From Kiritimatiellota bacterium (GTDB lineage: Bacteria > Verrucomicrobiota > Kiritimatiellia > Kiritimatiellales > Tichowtungiaceae): a stretch of 44,972 bases of DNA. Shown here one piece after another: positions 2-35,152 of the stretch. The notes under the pieces were generated by a model, which searched no databases, was not told where the DNA came from, and worked only from the letters and a program-made list of their open reading frames with translations. A program made the position numbers and the translations under genes. Every line of letters starts with the position of its first letter. Position 1 is the first letter of the stretch. Where the stretch lies: NCBI GenBank assembly GCA_014381785.1, contig JACNKZ010000049.1, positions 1-44,972 on the forward strand. Reading direction: 5' to 3'.

Positions 2-751
2 AATGCTCGTCATAAGGTTTGGGGACATCTTTTCCAAGGGCGATACAAAGCGTTACTGGTGGATGGAGACGGAGATTATTTTTCTACGGTGGCGAGCTAC
101 ATCCATTTAAATCCGGCCCGCGCACATTGTTTTGATTTAGAAAGCGGCAAACTCTCCGATTTCAGACCGAGCAGTTATCCTTGTTACATGCGTCCATCGG
201 AGCGCCCCGCCTGGCTGGTTGCTGAACGGGTTTTAAATAGTTTGGGTTTTGAAGACACGACGTCGGGTCGCACAAAGTATCGTAATTACATGGCAAAGCG
301 GATTCTTGAAATCGCACACAGCGACTGTCCGTCCGAGGCAGACGAAACTTGGGGGAAAATTAGGCGCGGCTGGATTTTTGGATCGGAAACTTTCTGTGCA
401 AAGATGCGCGATGCGGTTGATCGGGCCGCAACGGGACATCGTCGCGACTCGCATAGTGGTGGCGCAACTCTACAGCATGACGAGGCGACTGCTGAGAAGC
501 TTCTAAGAAAAGGACTTCACATCCTGCAACTAAAACGATCTGATTTGGCAGGAATGAAAAAAGGCGATAAGCGAAAGAAAGCCATTGCATGGTTAATGCG
601 TAAAAATACAAGTGTGAAAATCGAGTGGATTGCAAAGGCTCTAATTATGGGGAATGTAGCAACGGTATCAAGGGGAGCGAGCGAGATTGAGTCCGCGACA
701 GAAGGTTATTTATTTGAACTAAAATCTAAAATGTCAGAATTCAAGGACTGA
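2..751 (+). CDS. REP-associated tyrosine (Y1/RAYT) transposase, 5'-truncated by window
   Basis: The reading frame is open from base 2, so the gene begins upstream of the window; a GTG at 59 is internal. The visible start reads N-A-R-H-K-V-W-G-H-L-F-Q-G-R-Y-K-A and is followed by Y-I-H-L-N-P-A-R-A, both hallmarks of the C-terminal half of the Y1 transposase domain of the RAYT (IS200/IS605-related) family. The HUH metal-binding motif and catalytic Tyr would lie mostly upstream. The last ~110 residues are Lys-rich and resemble the DnaA-like/HTH tail found in long RAYTs (K-K-A-I-A-W-L, I-A-K-A-L-x-M-G-N-V-A-T-V-S). RAYTs mobilise REP palindromes. The stop codon lies inside a copy of a REP-like unit that is immediately repeated, supporting the assignment. 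Family call is confident; activity cannot be judged without the N-terminus. Confidence 0.85.
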   Translation, partial: NARHKVWGHLFQGRYKALLVDGDGDYFSTVASYIHLNPARAHCFDLESGKLSDFRPSSYPCYMRPSERPAWLVAERVLNSLGFEDTTSGRTKYRNYMAKRILEIAHSDCPSEADETWGKIRRGWIFGSETFCAKMRDAVDRAATGHRRDSHSGGATLQHDEATAEKLLRKGLHILQLKRSDLAGMKKGDKRKKAIAWLMRKNTSVKIEWIAKALIMGNVATVSRGASEIESATEGYLFELKSKMSEFKD

Positions 752-799
752 CCCCACCTCCGTAAAATGTCAGAATTCAAGGACTGACCCCACCTCCGT
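728..799 (+). repeat. Tandem 36-bp REP-like unit at the 3' end of the transposase gene
   Basis: Two perfect 36-bp copies (728-763 and 764-799) lie head to tail. Read on the minus strand, each contains GGGGTCAGTCC followed by TTGAATTCTGACATTTT. The first copy supplies the last residues (M-S-E-F-K-D) and stop codon of the transposase. The GGGGTCAGtCC core reappears at 15909-16158 and 30860-30914, so this is probably the substrate class of the neighbouring RAYT. The rest of the gap up to mutS (800-890) holds a short repetitive stretch at 808-838 (GCCTAAGGCCT-like) and no gene. Confidence 0.75.
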
Positions 800-18401: not shown

Positions 18402-21320
18402 ATGAGTGAAAAATGGATCACCGTCACTGGCGCGCGCGAGCACAACCTCAAAAATGTGGATGTGCGGATTCCGCGCAATAAACTCACCGTCATCACCGGC
18501 TTGAGCGGTTCAGGTAAATCGAGCCTCGCCTTCGACACGCTCTACGCCGAAGGCCAGCGCAAATATGTCGAAAGCCTCTCAGCCTACGCCCGCCAGTTTC
18601 TCGACCAGATGCAAAAACCCGATGTCGACACCATTGAGGGCCTCTCGCCCGCCATCTCCATCGAGCAGCGTACGGCAGGTTCCAACCCGCGCTCCATCGT
18701 CGCCACCGTCACCGAAATCCACGACTACCTGCGCCTGCTTTTTCCAGCCATTGGAAACGTCCACTGCCCCGGGTGTGGCAAACCGATCCAGCAGCAGAGC
18801 GCCGAGAACATCGTCGAGCAGCTGCTGGACATTCCGGCCAAAACCAAAGTGATGTTGCTCGCCCCGCTGGTGCGCGGACGCAAAGGCAAGCACGAAGAGG
18901 TGTTCGAGACGATCCGCAAGCAGGGCTTTGTGCGCGTGCGCGTCGACGGCGAACTCTACGAAATCGAACACGCCCCCGATCTGGAGAAAAATAAAAAACA
19001 CACCATCGAGGCGGTCGTCGACCGGCTGGTCATTGACTCCGCCGTGCGCAGCCGCATCAACGACTCGGTCGAGCTCGCGCTCTCCACCGGCGAGGGACTG
19101 CTGATCGCCATGGTTCAAACCGGAGACAAATGGGCCGACCGGCTCTACTCCGAAAAAAACGCCTGTCTCGACTGCAACATCAGTTTTGAAACCCTCACAC
19201 CCAAACACTTTTCGTTCAACAGTCCCTACGGCGCCTGCCCAACCTGCCACGGCCTGGGCAACATGCTCACCTTCGACGAAGAGCTGATTGTCCCCAACGA
19301 AGAGCTGCCGCTCGAAGAATGCGTTCACCCGTGGCGGCGCGGCGGGCGCCGAGCCATCATCTACTACAAAAAACTGCTGTCCGCCGTCGCCGACAACTAC
19401 GGCATCGATCTAAACACCCCGTTCAACGAGCTGCCCGCCTCCTTTAAGAAAATTCTCTTCTACGGCTCGGACGAACCCATCAGCTACTACATGCGCCGCC
19501 GGAAAATCGAAAAACCCTTCGAAGGCATCATCCCCAACCTGCAGCGCCGTTACACGGAAAGCGACAGCGACTGGACGCAAGACCGTCTGCGCGCCTACAT
19601 GGGCCAGCAGCAGTGCACCGACTGCCACGGCGCGCGCCTGCGGCCCGAAAGTCTCGCCTGCACCGTCAACGGACAGAACATCCACCAACTCTGCTCCCTC
19701 TCCATCGACCGCGCGCAGGAGTTTTTCCAAACATTGGAAGGGAATAGTGGCAAAGGGCAAGGGGCAAAGGGCAAAGGAAAAACGGAAAGCTCTGCGATCA
19801 CTCGCCACTCGCCACCCGACACTCGCCACCCTCCGGGGTTAACCCCGGAGGAGGCGCACATCGCCCGCGACATCCTCAAAGAAATCCGCGCGCGTCTCGG
19901 CTTTATGATCGATGTGGGGCTCGACTACCTCACCCTCGACCGCGAAAGCGGCACGCTCTCCGGCGGCGAAGCGCAGCGCATCCGGCTCGCCACGCAGATC
20001 GGCTCGCGCCTGACCGGCGTGCTCTACGTGCTCGACGAGCCAAGCATCGGCCTGCACCAGCGCGATAACGACCGTCTGCTCGCCACCCTTAAAGAGTTGC
20101 GCGACCTCGGCAATACCGTTGTCGTTGTCGAACACGACGAGCAGACCATCCGCGAGGCCGACCACGTGATCGACCTCGGCCCCGGCGCGGGCGTCCACGG
20201 CGGCGAGATCGTTTTTGCAGGCACGCCAAAACAACTGCTGAAAGCCAAAAACTCACTGACCGCGCAGTACATGCGGCGCGAAACCCAGATCGAAGTGCCA
20301 AAAAAACGGACCAAAGCAACGAACGGCTTCCTCGAAATTAAAGGGGCGTCCGAAAACAATCTCAAAAACGTGAACGTGAAAATTCCGCTCGGACTGTTCA
20401 CCTGCGTCACCGGGGTTTCCGGCTCCGGCAAAAGCACGCTCACCGACGATGTGCTGCGCCGCGCCCTCTTCCGCCATTTCCACGGTTCCAAGGAACGTCC
20501 CGGAAAACACAAGGAACTGCTCGGCGTTGAGCAGATCGACAAGGTAATCGTGATCGATCAGTCGCCGATCGGTCGCACCCCGCGATCCAACCCCGTCACC
20601 TATACCGGCGCCTTTTCGATTATCCGCGATCTTTTCGCGCAGCTGCCCGCCTCGAAGGTGCGCGGCTATAAACCGGGGCGGTTCAGCTTCAACGTCAAGG
20701 GCGGCCGCTGCGAGCACTGCACCGGCGACGGTCTGCTCAAAATCGAAATGCACTTTCTGCCGGATGTCTATGTGACCTGCCCGCAGTGCAACGGCAAACG
20801 TTACAACCGCGAAACACTTGAAGTGCACTACGGCGGCAAAAGCATCGCCGATGTGCTCGCCATGACGATCAATGAAGCCTGCGAATTTTTCAGCGCGATC
20901 CCCGGCGTGGAGCGCAAACTGCGCACGTTGCGCGAAGTCGGGCTCGGCTACCTTTGCCTCGGTCAGTCCGCCACCACGCTCTCCGGCGGCGAGGCCCAGC
21001 GCATCAAGCTCTCCTCCGAGCTGAGCAAAAAGGCGACCGGCAAAACACTCTACATTCTCGACGAACCGACCACCGGGCTGCACTTCGCCGATGTCCATAA
21101 GCTGATTGAGGTGCTCGAAACACTGCGCGACGGCGGCAATACCGTGCTGGTGATTGAGCATAACCTCGATGTAATCAAACGCGCCGACTGGCTGATCGAC
21201 CTCGGCCCCGAGGGCGGGGAGCGCGGCGGAAAGGTCGTCGTCGCCGGTACCCCCGAAAAGGTCGCCGCCCACCCAAAATCCTATACGGGAAAATACTTGG
21301 CAGAATTGCTAGGGGAATAG
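18402..21320 (+). CDS. uvrA: Excinuclease ABC subunit A (UvrA) with a repeat-derived insertion
   Basis: UvrA scans DNA for bulky lesions and loads UvrB. Landmarks are Walker A1 G-L-S-G-S-G-K-S (33-40), zinc module 1 (C-L-D-C ... C-P-T-C near 249-277), signature 1 L-S-G-G-E-A-Q-R with [11 protein letters not shown], Walker A2 G-V-S-G-S-G-K-S-T, zinc module 2 (C-E-H-C ... C-P-Q-C) and L-D-E-P-T-T-G-L-H. The 972 residues are 32 more than E. coli (940). The excess is explained by residues ~447-479, a Gly/Lys then Arg/His/Pro-rich stretch made of low-complexity DNA repeats, between E-F-F-Q-T-L-E and [11 protein letters not shown]. All catalytic motifs remain in frame, so the protein is probably active. 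Confidence 0.98.
18741..18757. repeat. Palindrome TTTCCAG-CCA-TTGGAAA in uvrA
   Basis: One arm mismatch, centred at 18749, translated F-P-A-I-G-N: the third reading frame of the motif, the only case in this window. Spacing to flanking conserved UvrA residues (Y-L-R-L-L-F ... C-P) equals that of E. coli as I remember it, so it could also be chance convergence. Confidence 0.55.
19724..19740. repeat. Palindrome TTTCCAA-ACA-TTGGAAG in uvrA
   Basis: One mismatch in the right arm, centred at 19732, read F-Q-T-L-E-G. It directly abuts the low-complexity insertion that follows. Confidence 0.8.
19741..19851. repeat. In-frame repeat-derived insertion in uvrA with a 22-bp palindrome
   Basis: The segment consists of AAGGGCAAGGGGC-like purine repeats (19749-19780), CACTCGCCACTCGCCAC-like repeats (19799-19829), and a perfect palindrome whose core is CTCCGGGGTTAACCCCGGAG (19831-19850, extending one base each side). 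It encodes roughly 33 residues absent from typical UvrA. Base use differs sharply from the surrounding gene. Confidence 0.8.
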
Positions 21321-25854: not shown

Positions 25855-26652
25855 TCAGCCCTTCAGCCGATCCATCCTCAAGCGGTGACGATCGTCAAAC
25901 AACCGGTGCGATGTCATCCAGACTGCGGCCAGCGTGCCGAACCCTGTGCCGCCCGCAATCAGAAACATGATCAGGATCTGATACTTCACCGCATCGAGCG
26001 GCTGATTACCTGCCAGAATCTGGCCGGTCATCATACCCGGCAAGCTGACCAGTCCCGCGGCGGCCATCGAATTAATAATCGGGATCAGCCCCGTTCGGAC
26101 ACTCTCACGGCGGATATCGTCAATCGCTTCCGATTGGGTCTGGCCCAGCGCCAACCGCGTCTCAATTGCCGCACGGTTCTGACGCACATTCTGCGTCAAA
26201 TGATTCAGCGACAGCGACAATCCGTTCATCGTGTTACCCAGCAGCATGCCGAGCAGTGGAATGGCGTAGCGCGGCGCATACCACGGCTCCGGCCCCACCA
26301 CGACGGTCAGCGCCAGCACCACCACGGCAAAAGACGAAACAAACATCGAGCTTAGGCCAACACCAAAACCCCACCCGCCGCGCAACGGATTCTTCTGCCG
26401 CGCACGCACTTCGCGTCCCGCGCCCAACAGCATCACCAGCGCCATCAGCGCCACCCAGAACGGCGACGAGCTGGCAAACAGCGCTTTGAGCACGAAGCCG
26501 ATTAAGGACAATTGAATCACCGTGCGGGTTGCATTCCACAACAGCTTGCCTCCGACGCCCAAACGGAGACGCCGGCATACCACGGCCAGCGCGATTACCA
26601 GCAGCGCGGCCAGAGACAGCTCAAACGGGGAAAGCTGAATGATTCCACTCAT
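25855..26652 (-). CDS. fetB: FetB-like ABC transporter permease (UPF0014, iron export)
   Basis: About 265 residues with six to seven hydrophobic segments. The family motifs are present: P-L-L-G-M-L-L-G-N-T-M-N-G-L-S-L and L-V-S-L-P-G-M-M-T-G-Q-I-L-A-G-N-Q-P. FetAB (YbbLM) of E. coli exports iron and protects against oxidative stress. The ATG at 26652 overlaps the fetA stop (ATGA) and has GGAGG upstream; a start four codons earlier is less likely. Cotranscribed with fetA and probably kdsD. Confidence 0.92.
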   Translation of the reverse strand: MSGIIQLSPFELSLAALLVIALAVVCRRLRLGVGGKLLWNATRTVIQLSLIGFVLKALFASSSPFWVALMALVMLLGAGREVRARQKNPLRGGWGFGVGLSSMFVSSFAVVVLALTVVVGPEPWYAPRYAIPLLGMLLGNTMNGLSLSLNHLTQNVRQNRAAIETRLALGQTQSEAIDDIRRESVRTGLIPIINSMAAAGLVSLPGMMTGQILAGNQPLDAVKYQILIMFLIAGGTGFGTLAAVWMTSHRLFDDRHRLRMDRLKG

Positions 26653-27377
26653 GCAACCTCCCACAGCTGAAGGTGCCGATCCGCCGCGCGGGCGATCTGC
26701 TCCGGATTATGGCTCACCCACACCACCGCCGCGCCGGTTGATTTCCGATACTCCGCAATCACCTCTTCGACTTTCCAAACATTGGAAGCATCCAGCGCCG
26801 CGGTCGGCTCATCGAGTAGCAGCACCTTGGGTTCATTCAGCAAAAGACGGAACAACGCCAGCCGCTGCTTCTCCCCCGTCGAAAGTCGATCCACCCGCCA
26901 CTCCAACACATCGCGTTGAAACCCTAATTTTTCCAAACATTGGAAATCTGAACCGCGAATGAACGCGAACCGAGCCCCTGGCGAGCTGGGCTCCGCGAAT
27001 GCGGGGCAACGAAGTGGCAATGAACGCGAATCCCCTCCTTCGGAGGGGTGGCCGTAGGCCGGAGTAGGTTCTTTTTGACTCCTGGCTCCTGATCTCTGCC
27101 CCCTGAAGTGGTCTCCGACGCAATCGGCCCACCAACTGCTTTCAGCCGACAGCCATCCGACCTGCCGCCGCCACTGCGGTGCTGGCATTTCATTGCGATC
27201 GGTTCCGTCCAGAAAAACGGCACCTTCCGCCAGATCGAGATCGGCCAGCGCGCGCAACAGCAGCGTTTTACCGCACCCCGACGGGCCGGACAACGCCACG
27301 CACTCCCCGCGCTCCACCGCAAAAGAAAAAGGGCCTCCGCAGACTGTGCGCAGGCCCTCTATGATCAACCGGCTCAT
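26649..27377 (-). CDS. fetA: FetA-like ABC ATPase carrying a ~53-residue repeat-derived insertion
   Basis: 242 residues. Walker A G-P-S-G-C-G-K-T is at 31-38, the signature L-S-T-G-E-K-Q near 165-171, Walker B V-L-L-L-D-E-P at ~185-191, and a switch His lies in W-V-S-H-N-P. Residues ~92-144 have no counterpart in FetA-type ATPases as I know them; they come from several dispersed repeats placed in frame (26930-27110). No Gln stands at the Q-loop position (V-G-W-L-S-A-E-S). The helical subdomain that contacts FetB is exactly where the insert lies, so coupling could be impaired although all catalytic motifs are intact. It starts 5 bp after kdsD. Confidence 0.88.
   Translation of the reverse strand: MSRLIIEGLRTVCGGPFSFAVERGECVALSGPSGCGKTLLLRALADLDLAEGAVFLDGTDRNEMPAPQWRRQVGWLSAESSWWADCVGDHFRGQRSGARSQKEPTPAYGHPSEGGDSRSLPLRCPAFAEPSSPGARFAFIRGSDFQCLEKLGFQRDVLEWRVDRLSTGEKQRLALFRLLLNEPKVLLLDEPTAALDASNVWKVEEVIAEYRKSTGAAVVWVSHNPEQIARAADRHLQLWEVA
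26772..26788. repeat. Palindrome TTTCCAA-ACA-TTGGAAG in fetA
   Basis: One arm mismatch, centred at 26780. On the coding strand it reads S-N-V-W-K-V in the D-loop region right after Walker B, without changing the length of this segment relative to E. coli FetA as I remember it. Confidence 0.75.
26930..26946. repeat. Palindrome TTTCCAA-ACA-TTGGAAA in fetA
   Basis: Perfect arms, centred at 26938, coding strand F-Q-C-L-E-K. It abuts the 80-bp repeat (4 bp away), marking one edge of the insertion hot spot. Confidence 0.85.
26951..27030. repeat. 80-bp dispersed repeat, copy 1, inside fetA
   Basis: Starts AACCGCGAATGAACGCGAA and ends CAATGAACGCGAA; it matches 41325-41404 (reverse complement) at 79 of 80 bases. 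In fetA it is read in the orientation opposite to the pabB copy, as D-S-R-S-L-P-L-R-C-P and so on. It is followed by CCCCTCCTTCGGAGGGG (27031-27047), a GGCCGTAGGCC unit and CTCCTGGCTCCTGA-type repeats up to ~27100, i.e. at least four repeat types nested in one gene. Confidence 0.92.
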
Positions 27378-28457: not shown

Positions 28458-31400
28458 ATGAAGATGAGCAACGGCGCACTGACAATTTTTCCGACCGAAC
28501 TGGCCAAACGCCGGGCGGAGCGGAACGCCGTTCTCAAAGCCGGGGCCATCGACACCTCCCGCCTGTTTACGCAGAAAAAGCTGATGGACACCTGCGAGCG
28601 CGCCGCGCGCCGCACGGGGCTGCTCGCCGGTCGCGCTCACGGTGAGGCGGAAATGCGGCTCCTGCTCGAACAGACCGCAGAAAATGTGCGGTTTACCCCT
28701 CGTCAACCGATCGCCAGGCTCTCCCCCGCCGCGCGCGCCGACCTATTAAAACAGCTTATCGAAAAACTGGCTTTTCTGGCGGAAGACAGCAGAGCCGTTA
28801 CCGAATGGCTACTGGCGCATGAGCCGGAGCATAAACTCCACGGCCTCGGGCAGCTGCTCGACGCATGGCGCGCTCAATGTTCAAACATGGGTCTTGCGGA
28901 CCGTTTTGCGATCAACACCGCCCTGCTGCAACTGATTGAAAGCGGCGACCTGCCCGCAGAGCTGGACGGAGAAATCCACTTCCGCGCCGTGCGCTGGTTC
29001 AACCCGTTCGAAGAACGCTTTGCGGCCGCGCTCAAAACCCGGCTCGGAACGGAGCGGGTACAGATTTTCTCGGTTCTGCCGGGCGAACACGCACAGGCCG
29101 CCGGAGACCGGCTCTGCGCAAGAGTTCGCGCGGATCTCGGCAACGAGGAGGAATGGAAGCAGTGGGCCGAGGATTTTGCCGATGCCTATGAAGCCGACGA
29201 CAGCAACATTCTCGAAAAAAACTCCCGCGAACGGGTTTCGTGTTTTGTCTCCGCTCATCCCTACGGCGAAATCGAAGACGCCGCACGGCGCATTGCCGCT
29301 GAAATCGAACACGGCAACGCGCCCGATCAGATGGCGCTGATCCTGCGCGACCTCAGTCCGTACACCGACATCGTCCCCGATGTCTTTCAGCGCTTCGGAA
29401 TTCCCTACTACTTCCGGCGCGGCACGCCCGCCGCCGCGCACCCGCCAGTGAAAGCCCTGCTCGCCCTGCTCGCCTTTCCGCACAACCACTCGCGCGACCG
29501 GTTATGCGACCTGCTTCTTTCACCGTCCATTGACTGGCCCGGCGTGGAAGACCGCGGGGAACTGGTTGCGCAAATCCGCCAAACCGAGCCGCCGCGCCTG
29601 CGCCGCCTGCCGAAGGAGCTCCGTGACTTTTTCCAGAGTTCGGAATTTTCGGAACAGGTTCAATTTTTGATAAAACAACACCACCTCGAACTGCCGGAAG
29701 AGGTTCACAGCCTAATTCAAGAAATTGCGTTGCTTCCGGCGCTACCGATGGAACGAATGATTTCCCTTTTTGAGAAACTGCTCGATAACGTCACCCTCAA
29801 CGATGAGCTCAGCACCGAAAGCGGCGTATGGATCGTCAACCCGATGGATGCGGCGGGCCTGCGGTTCGAGTCGGTCTACATCGCCGGCATGGACGACCGC
29901 ACCTTCCCGCAAATTCCGAAAGCGGACTCTCTGTTCAACGCCGCCGAACGCAACGCCCTGCGCGCTTTTCTGGAAGAGCGCAACATTCCCTGCCCGCGGC
30001 TCGCACTGTCCGAAACCGGCGAAGCTCTGATTCAGGAAGAGATTCTCTTCCTGACCGCCCTGAGCGCCGCCACCGAAAAACTGACCCTTTCGTACACACA
30101 AAGCGATGCGGACGGCAAAGAGCGCGCGCCCGGTGAATTCTTTGAGCGGATGCGCGGGCTGTCAAAAATCGATGCGCCGGCACACGGCGAATCATTCCAC
30201 ACCATTCTGCCGCCGGAAGCCGTCCGCGCTGAAGATGAAGCCAGGCAGACCCAGGCCTGGTTAAATCCATCTCCCGCAACCATCCAGACAGCCATCACGC
30301 CATTACCCGCTCTCCAGAAGTGGTTGGAAAAAAATCCGGAGTTCAGCGCAACGGCACTGGAATCGCTGGCCCGCAATCGCTTTGTTTTCTTCCTCGAAAA
30401 AGTGCTGGGCATCAAACCCGACCGCACCCACGGGGACGACACCGACCCGATGGACCGCGGCTCGATCGTTCACGACATTCTGGAGCGGGTGTATGCCGCT
30501 GTCGCTGAACGGAGCGACTGGTACGCAAAAAAAGTTTCCAATCATTGGAAACTTTCACAGGAAGGTGAGATTCCGCTCGCGGTGTTTGACCCGGCCAAAG
30601 CCGATGAGCTATTGGCGCTGGCCCGCGGGATTGCAGAAGAGGAGTTTGCGAAAGCGGAGCGGCGGGCGAGCTGTCATCTGGGACATCGCGCGGTATGGGA
30701 AACGGAAAAACGCAAGCTGCACCAAGTGATCGAAAACATTGTCCGCATGGATATCAATACGGCACAAGCCGAGAACCGCTATCCCGCCCTCTTTGAAATG
30801 AAGTTTGATGAAAAGCACGATCTGCCGATTACCCTCCACTACACTCAGGGGTCAACTCAGGGGTCAGTCCGTGAATCGTGCATCGAAGATGACACGATTC
30901 CTCGTACTGACCCCATTCGCTTCGAGGAGGGTATCCGGCTGAAGGGAAAAATCGACCGCATCGATCTGATTTTTGATGACGACGGCGAACTGCAACAGTT
31001 GCTGGTGGTGGACTACAAAGGAAAATCAAGGATCGACACAGCGGAGACCATCGCCAAAAAGACCGCGCTCAATCTCGACTGCCAGCTGGCGCTCTACACC
31101 TTTGCCGCCCAGCAGTTTTTCTTCGGCGAGCACAACACACCGGAACTGAACGAAAAGGTGCAGGCGGTCTACCACCTGCAGGAGCGCGACCTTGAAAAAA
31201 TGTCGAAGCACTTCGGCAACGACAAAAAACGCCTCGTCATGACGCCGGAGCTAACGGAACAATTCCTCGAAACGCTTTTTTCCAATGTTTGGAAACTCCG
31301 CAACGGCGATCTTGCCCCCGAACCGCTCATCGAAGGCTACGACGATTACTCCCACATCTGCCGCACCCCTGCTATCGATCCAAAAGAACTGTTGAAGTAA
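28458..31400 (+). CDS. AddB/RecB-like PD-(D/E)XK nuclease protein
   Basis: 980 residues. The first ~600 have the inactivated helicase layout of AddB-type proteins, including V-W-I-V-N-P-M-D-A-A-G-L-R-F and Y-I-A-G-M-D-D-R-T-F-P. The C-terminal third holds a RecB-like nuclease with M-D-R-G-S-I-V-H-D-I-L-E-R-V (motif near 660), L-K-G-K-I-D-R-I-D-L and V-V-D-Y-K-G-K-S, giving the D...D-Y-K catalytic set. No Walker A is evident, so it is probably a partner nuclease for recombination or double-strand break end-processing, but no addA lies nearby. Two palindromes (30535, 31279) and a REP-type hairpin (30843-30914, about 24 residues) are translated in frame between nuclease motifs. ATG 28458 or 28464 are both possible starts. 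Confidence 0.88.
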   Translation: MKMSNGALTIFPTELAKRRAERNAVLKAGAIDTSRLFTQKKLMDTCERAARRTGLLAGRAHGEAEMRLLLEQTAENVRFTPRQPIARLSPAARADLLKQLIEKLAFLAEDSRAVTEWLLAHEPEHKLHGLGQLLDAWRAQCSNMGLADRFAINTALLQLIESGDLPAELDGEIHFRAVRWFNPFEERFAAALKTRLGTERVQIFSVLPGEHAQAAGDRLCARVRADLGNEEEWKQWAEDFADAYEADDSNILEKNSRERVSCFVSAHPYGEIEDAARRIAAEIEHGNAPDQMALILRDLSPYTDIVPDVFQRFGIPYYFRRGTPAAAHPPVKALLALLAFPHNHSRDRLCDLLLSPSIDWPGVEDRGELVAQIRQTEPPRLRRLPKELRDFFQSSEFSEQVQFLIKQHHLELPEEVHSLIQEIALLPALPMERMISLFEKLLDNVTLNDELSTESGVWIVNPMDAAGLRFESVYIAGMDDRTFPQIPKADSLFNAAERNALRAFLEERNIPCPRLALSETGEALIQEEILFLTALSAATEKLTLSYTQSDADGKERAPGEFFERMRGLSKIDAPAHGESFHTILPPEAVRAEDEARQTQAWLNPSPATIQTAITPLPALQKWLEKNPEFSATALESLARNRFVFFLEKVLGIKPDRTHGDDTDPMDRGSIVHDILERVYAAVAERSDWYAKKVSNHWKLSQEGEIPLAVFDPAKADELLALARGIAEEEFAKAERRASCHLGHRAVWETEKRKLHQVIENIVRMDINTAQAENRYPALFEMKFDEKHDLPITLHYTQGSTQGSVRESCIEDDTIPRTDPIRFEEGIRLKGKIDRIDLIFDDDGELQQLLVVDYKGKSRIDTAETIAKKTALNLDCQLALYTFAAQQFFFGEHNTPELNEKVQAVYHLQERDLEKMSKHFGNDKKRLVMTPELTEQFLETLFSNVWKLRNGDLAPEPLIEGYDDYSHICRTPAIDPKELLK
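30535..30551. repeat. Palindrome TTTCCAA-TCA-TTGGAAA in the nuclease gene
   Basis: Perfect 7-bp arms that extend to 11 bp (AAAGTTTCCAA / TTGGAAACTTT), centre 30543, read S-N-H-W-K-L. The unusual TCA spacer occurs only here. Confidence 0.85.
30843..30914. repeat. In-frame REP-type hairpin in the nuclease gene
   Basis: A 12-bp direct duplication ACTCAGGGGTCA (30843-30854, 30855-30866) leads into a two-part stem. GGGGTCAGT (30860-30868) pairs with ACTGACCCC (30906-30914), and GAATCGTG (30873-30880) pairs with CACGATTC (30893-30900). The GGGGTCAGTCC core equals that of the REP unit beside the transposase at the window start. It adds about 24 codons (T-Q-G-S-T-Q-G-S-V-R-E-S and so on) without a stop or frameshift, just before the catalytic L-K-G-K-I-D. 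Confidence 0.88.
31279..31295. repeat. Palindrome TTTCCAA-TGT-TTGGAAA in the nuclease gene
   Basis: Perfect arms, centre 31287, read F-S-N-V-W-K-L near the C-terminus. It is the last good site before a 10.8-kb stretch with none. Confidence 0.85.
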
Positions 31401-32709: not shown

Positions 32710-32900
32710 GATTCAGCCTGCATTTGCTAATCCATAAATCCCCTTCATGCCGGATAAATGAAGCAGATATCACGCCACAGAATCAGCGTCAAATAACTTT
32801 TGGGAATAAATCTCTATACTGTCTGCCCCGGCGTCTCCCCGTTAAAGACAAAGATATATATTACCAAATACTCCTGTTTTGGAATCCTCATTCAAATAAA

Positions 32901-32930
32901 AAAAGCCCCTCCGCGAGCGGAAGGGCTTTT
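32901..32930 (-). terminator. Intrinsic terminator of rpsO-pnp
   Basis: AAAAGCCC (32901-32908) pairs with GGGCTTTT (32923-32930) and TCCGC with GCGGA, interrupted by a single C/A mismatch, around a 2-nt loop. On the minus strand a T-rich run follows (plus-strand A-run 32897-32904), as expected downstream of pnp. The rest of the 32710-32980 gap holds one dispersed repeat and the upstream region of the phosphatase gene. Confidence 0.85.
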
Positions 32931-32940
32931 CATGTCCCCT

Positions 32941-32964
32941 GTCCGCCGTAGCCTTGGCGGAGGA
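32941..32964. repeat. Dispersed TCCGCC-GGCGGA repeat between pnp stop and its terminator
   Basis: TCCGCC and GGCGGA form arms around GTAGCCTT. On the minus strand this is the widespread unit whose translation reads S-S-A-K-A-T-A-D in many PVC/Bacteroidetes genomes (recognised from experience). It lies in the pnp 3' untranslated region. Confidence 0.6.
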
Positions 32965-32980
32965 GGAACCGGGGTGAAGC

Positions 32981-35152
32981 TTAGTCCGTGGCTTCTGCCT
33001 CGGCGTTGGCATCTTTGGCAGTGTCTTCGCCGTGAACTTCAGCATCTTTTTCAGCCATGGCCGCTTTGCGGCTGAGGCGGATTTTGCCGTCGCGGTCGAC
33101 GTCGAGGACCTTGACCCACATGGTGTCGCCCTCTTTACAGATGTCTTCGACTTTGCCGACGCGGAAGTCAGCGAGTTCGGAGACGTGCACGAGGCCGTCT
33201 TTACCGGGCAGGATTTCGACGAACGCACCGAAGTCGCGGATGGTGCGGACGGTTCCTTCGTAGAGGGCGCCGATTTCAGCTTCAGCGCAAATGCCGTTGA
33301 CGACTTTAAGCGCACCCAGCATAGCTTCGCCGTCGGAGCTGAAGATACTGACGGTTCCGTCTTCTTCAACGTCGATCTGCACGCCGTAGGTTTCAGTGAT
33401 TCCGCGGATGACTTTTCCACCGGGGCCGATGAGGGCACCGATTTTTTCCGGGTCGATTTTGACCACTTCAACACGCGGAGCATGAATGCTCATTTCTGCG
33501 CGCGGAGCGTCGATGACGGTCTGCATGTAGTCGAGAATTTCGAGGCGACCTTTAAGGGCCATCGCGAAAGCGCCTTCAACCTGGTTCCAGTTAAGGCCGT
33601 TGATTTTCAGGTCGACCTGGAAGGAGGTGATTCCTTCGCGGGTTCCGACGACTTTGAAGTCCATGTCGCCGCAGTGGTCTTCGGTTCCGAGAATATCGAT
33701 CACAAGGTCGGACTGTTCACCTTTGGTGAAGAGACCCACGGAGATACCGGCAACCGGAGCCTTGATCGGAACACCCGCATCCATAAGGGCGAGTACGCCA
33801 ACACAGGCGGAAGCCATGGAAGACGATCCGTTGGATCCCATGATTTCGGAAACAACGCGCACGGCGTAGGGATAGTCTTTCGGCAGGATCGGAACGATAC
33901 TGCGTTCAGCCAGGTTACCGTGGCCGATTTCGCGACGACTGGTGAATCCGAGGCGACCACACTCACCCACGCAGTAAGGCGGGAAGTTGTAGTGCAGCAT
34001 GAATTGTTTCTCGGTCGGACCGCCGGTCACAGCGTCCATGGACTGAGAATCTTTCTTCGGGCCGAGGGTAACAGTCGCGAGCGACTGCGTTTCACCGCGG
34101 TTGAAGATGGCGGAACCGTGCACGCGCGGCAATACGCCGACTTGTGCTTTCAGTTCACGCATTTCGTCGAAGCCTCGGCCACCGATACGCATCTTTTTCT
34201 CAAGCACGTTGTTGCGGAGGGTTTCGATTTCAAGTTCGTGGAAGGCGTGGAAGTAGTCTTCGTCGGTCATGTCCGGGAACACTTCAAGCATCTTCGCTTT
34301 TACTTCTTCTTTCAGCGCGTTAACCGCGTCCTGACGTTTGAGCTTGGCGCCTTCTCCGAGGATGGTGCTGAACTTCTCGCCACCGATTTCGCGCGCTTTA
34401 TCGAGGAGCGTGGTGTCTTTCTCAGCAACAACCACTTTCCATTCCGGCAGGCCGAGCTGTTTGCGCAGTTCGAACTGAGCGGCAATGATCGGCTGAATGG
34501 CTTCGTGCGCCACTTTCATGGCGGCGATGAAGTCGGCTTCGCTGATTTCCTCAGCAGACCCTTCGATCATCATGGTTTTTTCGGCGGTACCAACGTAAGT
34601 GAGGTCGAGGTCGCTTTTGAGCATGTCGTCGTGGGTGGGGTTCACAATGAGTTCCCCGTTGACGCGAGCCATGCGCACGCCACCGATCGGCCCACCGAAC
34701 GGCAGTTCGGTCAGCATAAGCGCGGCGCTTGATGCGTTGATGCTGAGGAAATCGCACGCACGGGTGCAATCGGTGGACATCAGCGTGTTGTTGATCTGGA
34801 CTTCATTATAAAACCCTTCAGGGAACAGGGTGCGGATCGGACGGTCCGTTACACGCATGGTGAGAATTTCCGATTCGGAAGGACGAGACTCACGTTTGAA
34901 GTATCCTCCTGGAAAGCGCCCTGCGGCATAAAACTTTTCGCGGTATTCAACCTGCAGCGGGAAAAAGTCGCACCCTTCGCGCGAATTGCCCGTGGTAACG
35001 GCTGAGAAGACGACATTGTCGCCGAATTGGCAGGAGACGGCACCAGCGGCTTGCTGTGCGAGGACTCCGGATTCAAAACTCATCGGCATGCCGCCGACTT
35101 CGAACTCTACTTTTACTGTATCTTTCATTTCTTTCCTTACTTCTGCATCCAT
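32981..35152 (-). CDS. pnp: Polyribonucleotide nucleotidyltransferase (PNPase)
   Basis: 723 residues in the canonical order: two RNase PH-like domains (first ~15-210, with [11 protein letters not shown]; second ~310-540, with [13 protein letters not shown] and [10 protein letters not shown]), a KH domain ([12 protein letters not shown]) and an S1 domain ([16 protein letters not shown]). PNPase degrades RNA 3'-5' using phosphate. It follows rpsO, the classic order, and an RNase III-type hairpin lies between them. The start gives [12 protein letters not shown]; initiation at the second Met is possible. A long antisense open frame is a codon-bias shadow. Confidence 0.98.

Follow-up and report, generated by a model that had tools for sequence, protein, structure and literature searches.

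An in-frame REP-type dimer in addB, and RAYT genes nested within conserved host genes of Kiritimatiellales

In the genome of a Kiritimatiellota bacterium, the only gene encoding an AddB/RecB-like helicase-nuclease subunit contains a 72-bp palindromic dimer in frame. Very probably, a non-autonomous TIR/REP dimer of the RAYT/TIRYT (HUH tyrosine) type was inserted into this addB gene in the organism's own lineage, the frame being kept and about 26 residues being added in a tolerant loop. The gene lies on contig C76 (44,972 nucleotides, here called the window), which belongs to a draft genome of 2.2 Mb in 88 contigs, 98.4% complete.

In bacteria, important genes are expected to be cleared of transposable elements. 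Across the order, REP dimers and REP-flanked transposase genes persist in frame at recurrent sites, and their carriers include replication-restart, recombination, nuclease and tRNA-maturation proteins. If such fusions are made and working, they would provide mobile elements with a route to building protein insertions, and would offer a transposase a refuge from which imprecise deletion cannot remove it. The observations also open to testing an old question, whether RAYTs serve the host or are selfish, and with it the reason for the repeated presence of intragenic REPs in repair genes.

The insertion in addB

The features of the gene and its insert are listed below.

28458..31400, + strand: AddB/RecB-like helicase-nuclease subunit, 980 aa, only copy in the genome
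30840..30917, + strand: net insertion relative to orthologues, 78 bp (26 codons), edges uncertain by a few bases in the alignment
30843..30914, + strand: REP/TIR dimer, 72 bp, translated as TQGSTQGSVRESCIEDDTIPRTDP
30843..30866, + strand: 12-bp tandem duplication of ACTCAGGGGTCA (30843-30854 and 30855-30866), left edge of the dimer
30860..30880, + strand: left arm GGGGTCAGTCCGTGAATCGTG, outer 12 nt conserved in five dimers from three species
30893..30914, + strand: right arm CACGATTCCTCGTACTGACCCC
30945..30965, + strand: GKIDRID, PD-(D/E)XK nuclease motif, just 3' of the insert
31008..31025, + strand: VDYKGK, catalytic D-Y-K motif, intact

The 980-aa product matches PDDEXK_1 (2.4e-23), and the top five PDB structural matches of its C-terminal nuclease domain are AddB chains of AddAB. 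The host is an AddB-type nuclease subunit with a C-terminal PD-(D/E)XK domain and an AddB-like fold. The original prediction had named an AddB/RecB-like nuclease correctly, but had placed the element between nuclease motifs, and it sits upstream of them. Close relatives of this AddB in public genomes come from Kiritimatiellales and Pontiellaceae MAGs and from Pontiella isolates. Ten orthologues from congeners are 26 codons shorter between the conserved LPxTL and RLKGKIDRID, and the palindrome is therefore an insertion. AlphaFold, with a mean pLDDT of 80 over the domain, models the insert as a loop between strands 164-168 and 197-212, the inserted residues having a pLDDT of about 46-63. As modelled, it is a flexible beta-hairpin loop ahead of the nuclease motifs that leaves the catalytic residues in place. 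Across 27 aligned sequences, G-x-x-D-R-x-D, D-Y-K and the other nuclease residues do not vary.

Decay or mis-assembly of addB, with the insertion as one of its lesions, might be suspected in a fragmented draft genome that has repeats at contig ends, as in the addB of congener G006. It is the least probable of the explanations weighed here, since the 980-aa frame is open, the catalytic motifs are intact, no other copy exists and the phenomenon is seen in many genomes, including that of an isolate type strain. It is also improbable that the insert is adaptive, its REP-encoded peptide altering AddB activity or partner binding. Repair and replication genes are indeed recurrent hosts, both here and in the 2013 survey of Di Nocera and colleagues (PMC3733652), but unrelated peptides fill the AddB loop in other species, no peptide sequence is conserved, and the insert region is modelled at low confidence.

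The predicted stem, 12-bp duplication and in-frame 72-bp unit are all borne out in the sequence. The stem pairs 30860-30871 with 30903-30914 and 30873-30880 with 30893-30900, and two facing repeats form one long hairpin, as is the feature of REPINs. The folding energy of the 72-mer, taken as single-stranded DNA, is -21 kcal/mol; shuffled sequences give -9.0 +/- 2.2 (z = -5.6), and none of 200 shuffled 72-mers folded equally well. Such a strong hairpin, together with the roles proposed for extragenic REPs, could favour a function in nucleic-acid structure, either as an mRNA hairpin that tunes expression or as the binding site of a DNA-binding protein, the peptide being incidental. This is very unlikely, given that the element lies about 2.4 kb from the addB start, deep in the ORF, is missing in congeners and has its place in the loop taken by other sequences. 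The insert is in frame and free of stop codons within ORF 28458-31400. Open-frame counts of the repeats are no higher than those of shuffles, and thus give no evidence that the repeats have adapted to coding.

Family of the dimer and recurrent insertion loops

The sequence GGGGTCAG at both ends of the dimer fits GGGGWSAS, the published consensus of the TIRs of RAYT-like "TIRYT" genes, which are often dimers (PMC3733652). No unpaired GTAG tag is present at the dimer ends (TCA-GGGG / CCCC-ATTCG), and the CGTC tag of Rickettsia palindromic elements is absent from the 72 bp. The element had been described as a REP/BIME-like, RAYT-associated dimer; this holds, yet it is of the TIR (GGGGWSAS, TIRYT) type and not of the GTAG type. 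Its core, GGGGTCAGTCC, occurs 24 times in the 2.2-Mb genome, against none for a reversed control. The search for this core with gene context, which had been suggested as a check, covered 25 sites and found most to be extragenic and three to lie well inside an ORF of at least 150 aa; addB is the only intragenic site backed by a protein family. Inverted core copies flank two Y1_Tnp genes of the same genome, and two cores lie beside a RAYT-like fragment at the window start, as follows.

C18, between core copies at 46221 (+) and 47290 (-): Y1_Tnp gene (4.6e-10)
C83, between core copies at 30317 (+) and 31388 (-): Y1_Tnp gene (5.8e-13)
Window 59..751, + strand: RAYT-like ORF, truncated at the contig end and without a match in Pfam
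Window 745..755, - strand: 3' end of the RAYT-like fragment, GGGGTCAGTCC core within a related single repeat
Window 781..791, - strand: second GGGGTCAGTCC core, 36 bp from the first and in equal orientation

The repeats flanking the Y1_Tnp genes have the core in common with the addB element, without its inner stem. A core in common with the units beside the RAYT gene at the window start had likewise been claimed, and is present, although only about 11-18 bp are shared with the 72-mer. At positions 1-30, the contig start overlaps a repeat/RAYT region of contig C88 (L025), and the window thus begins at a repeat-caused assembly break.

Dimers were sought in 346 genomes of the class with a pattern consisting of the two outer arms, GGGGTCAGTCCGN{15,45}CGTACTGACCCC. 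Five (GGGGTCAGTCCG...CGTACTGACCCC) were found in three genomes, all of this genus; one is intergenic and four are in frame in conserved genes, namely addB, cysS (in two species) and aconitase. The addB dimer has conserved ends in common with the four others, which come from two sister species. Left and right arms differ alike in all five (TCCG vs TACG), as the search pattern itself required. Two findings count against the proposed mechanism: the full dimer is single, with no second whole copy of the 72-mer in its own genome, and its inner stem differs from the RAYT-flanking repeats. The 72-mer had no match among plasmid records.

Two other congeners have palindromes of the GTAG type, unrelated to the dimer, in the same AddB loop. 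In G007 it reads LYNVGQASSLS...GQAGSLSYVN, while in G006 the contig ends inside the repeat. Of 12 congeners, five have an in-frame insert in one loop of cysS: a TIR dimer in two, a GTAG dimer in one and other repeats in the remaining two, the insertion being placed against congeners because comparison with solved structures was ambiguous. The fixed sites may reflect targeting or only tolerance; that a single loop takes up short dimers from different families speaks for tolerance.

In the mechanism proposed for addB, a short TIR/REP dimer, of a type whose movement is attributed to RAYT/TIRYT transposases, would have entered the gene, probably mobilized by a transposase acting in trans. Since the length of the dimer and the reading frame keep addB open, the subunit would gain about 26 residues; the insert is presumably translated and near-neutral for AddB activity. 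More generally, what RAYT/TIRYT elements insert may be either a short dimer, the small form represented by the addB element, or their own gene with its flanking repeats, with selection retaining only in-frame copies in tolerant loops, which would then be translated. Such a filter would explain the repeated refilling of AddB, CysS, XseA and PriA loops in related species, be it with differing repeats or with entire repeat-flanked RAYT genes.

Several other repeats were observed in passing. Further in-frame repeats (L074, L081, L086, L098) are present in aconitase and two other ORFs of G006 and in a periplasmic binding protein of G012. In the window, an ABC ATPase ORF (26649-27377, - strand) has about 60 repeat-like in-frame codons between the Walker A region and the signature motif (GARSQKEPTPAYGHPSEGG...), and a UvrA ORF has an in-frame low-complexity insert of about 30 codons at 19735-19850 (GGGCAAAGGGCAAAG... 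/ ACTCGCCACTCGCC...). An overlapping ORF just past the PNPase gene (32842-32990; SSSAKATADRG) looks repeat-derived. A separate, highly iterated palindrome, TTCCAANNNTTGGAA, occurs 15 times in the window (expected 0.01), at 2055, 6860, 6901, 8950, 12082, 13944, 18335, 19725, 21668, 26773, 26931, 28369, 30536, 31280 and 42078. Its genome total is 595, against one for a reversed control, and genomes of the order have between 0 and 1177 copies each. Twelve of the 15 window sites are intragenic, in two reading phases, and the palindrome is HIP1-like.

RAYT genes nested in conserved proteins

Tracing the GTAG repeats brought up xseA of G007, where a Y1_Tnp domain is embedded in the large subunit of exonuclease VII; exonuclease domains lie to either side of it, all in a single frame of 647 aa. 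A RAYT occupies this one place in three congeners (G007 included) and in six genomes of the sister family. At the same site, five genomes have only an in-frame REP dimer and one has a short remnant; most, including the genome that carries the addB dimer, are empty. All three congeners with the xseA-nested RAYT also have the GTAG repeat core GGACAGGCTTCCAGCCTGTCC, against one of 11 others (hypergeometric P about 0.01).

When the xseA RAYT was used in an order-wide search, most of its relatives were located within frames of about 440-1200 aa. Hosts confirmed by Pfam are PriA, with all PriA domains around the insert, HypF, the CCA-adding enzyme and a B12-binding radical-SAM/DUF4080 protein. The genome with the addB dimer itself has two repeat-flanked cases: a Y1_Tnp domain in its only PriA (C55, 971 aa; L240:2685-5597) and another in HypF (C74, 1034 aa; L241:1669-4770). 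Pontiella sulfatireligans F21(T), an isolate type strain (G024), has nested RAYTs in PriA and in the radical-SAM protein, and these are hence not a binning artefact. Among 30 genomes in which the PriA junction could be read on one contig, 15 have an insert of 654-921 bp, six one of 21-87 bp and nine none; the 15 have a nested RAYT and include the genome with the addB dimer and the P. sulfatireligans type strain. All PriA insert lengths are multiples of three, in copies that are homologous and hence not independent trials.

In a tree of 46 RAYT domains, drawn from the order-wide relatives and skewed to long ORFs, the domains group by host gene: the label changes six times, where five is the minimum and shuffled labels give 27.1. 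The CCA group (support 100/98) and the PriA group (91/86) are recovered; the XseA RAYTs are not resolved as a single clade, although one clade is allowed (AU p = 0.43). Genomes of both families are intermixed within the host-gene groups. Such host-gene-specific lineages speak for targeting or homing at the fixed sites, or else for vertical inheritance of long standing combined with losses.

Of 42 nested copies, 41 retain the HUH motif. The Y---NP tyrosine was examined in 47 domains and is retained in 46; the PriA copy of the genome with the addB dimer has lost it (Y to H). SFDHI/SYDHI, considered for a time as the catalytic tyrosine site, was dropped, as the literature (Y---NP) and the alignment favour the YIxxNP tyrosine. 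Nested RAYTs have dN/dS values of 0.06-0.18 in twelve pairs, many of the values being near saturation. Their synonymous divergence, with many values again near saturation, is often about 1.5-7 times that of adjoining host sequence and about equal to it in two CCA pairs. Fast evolution of rayt genes has been noted previously (PMC2817692), and the divergence pattern, as read from sequence, fits either this or repeated replacement at one site.

In 22 of the 42 nested copies, there is no ATG, GTG or TTG within 25 codons upstream of the catalytic core; these would hardly be made except within the host protein or by initiation at some more distant upstream codon. An AlphaFold model of the XseA-RAYT fusion (mean pLDDT 51.9) was too poor for use, and a search by sequence for PDB relatives of the nested RAYT gave nothing useful. 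A broader proposal is that a Kiritimatiellales clade of RAYTs is intein-like without splicing. Each lineage would have a fixed site in a conserved gene (PriA, XseA, CCA-adding enzyme, DUF4080 radical SAM), persist as a translated, catalytically intact nested domain, invade that site anew in other species and supply the enzyme that seeds in-frame REP dimers in further genes, addB and cysS among them. We advance this tentatively, judging it slightly more apt to prove wrong than right.

Comparison with known systems

The original prediction held REPs to be strictly extragenic, which is contradicted by the many intragenic REPs reported by Di Nocera and colleagues, including those in recB, uvrA and tRNA synthetases (PMC3733652). 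These encode 20-30 aa and many lie in DNA-repair genes; in Xanthomonas recB, different REPs occupy about one site (PMC3733652). The authors speculated that intragenic REPs in repair genes are linked to mutator states (PMC3733652). The in-frame dimer in addB is a further case of this published phenomenon. It resembles the intragenic GTAG REPs of Opitutus terrae uvrA and Xanthomonas recB, which are dimers of 20-30 codons in genes for DNA repair or tRNA enzymes, the recB case also having about the same site across related species (PMC3733652). However, the addB element is without GTAG, and Kiritimatiellales nest whole RAYT genes as well.

The likeness to TIRs of TIRYT genes lies in the GGGGWSAS ends, the occurrence of both dimers and single repeats, and the inverted copies flanking Y1_Tnp/RAYT-like genes. 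In that paper, the intragenic elements described are GTAG and CGTC repeats (PMC3733652); the addB dimer is intragenic and of the TIR type. Rickettsia palindromic elements are likewise palindromes in frame within coding genes, but they differ in sequence, bear the CGTC tag and have no dedicated transposase known, while the elements described here are RAYT/TIRYT associated.

The nested RAYTs recall inteins and IStrons, which are also mobile elements residing within host genes. Unlike inteins, the nested RAYT ORFs scanned had no Pfam match to the Hint splicing domain, and their frame is open through both ends, which makes a translated insert a likelier outcome than splicing. A word-based search of the open-access literature found no earlier paper on nested in-frame RAYTs, nor one on the refilled AddB and cysS loops of this group. 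The addB dimer belongs to a known phenomenon, and the gene-specific nested transposases look like a novel form of it.
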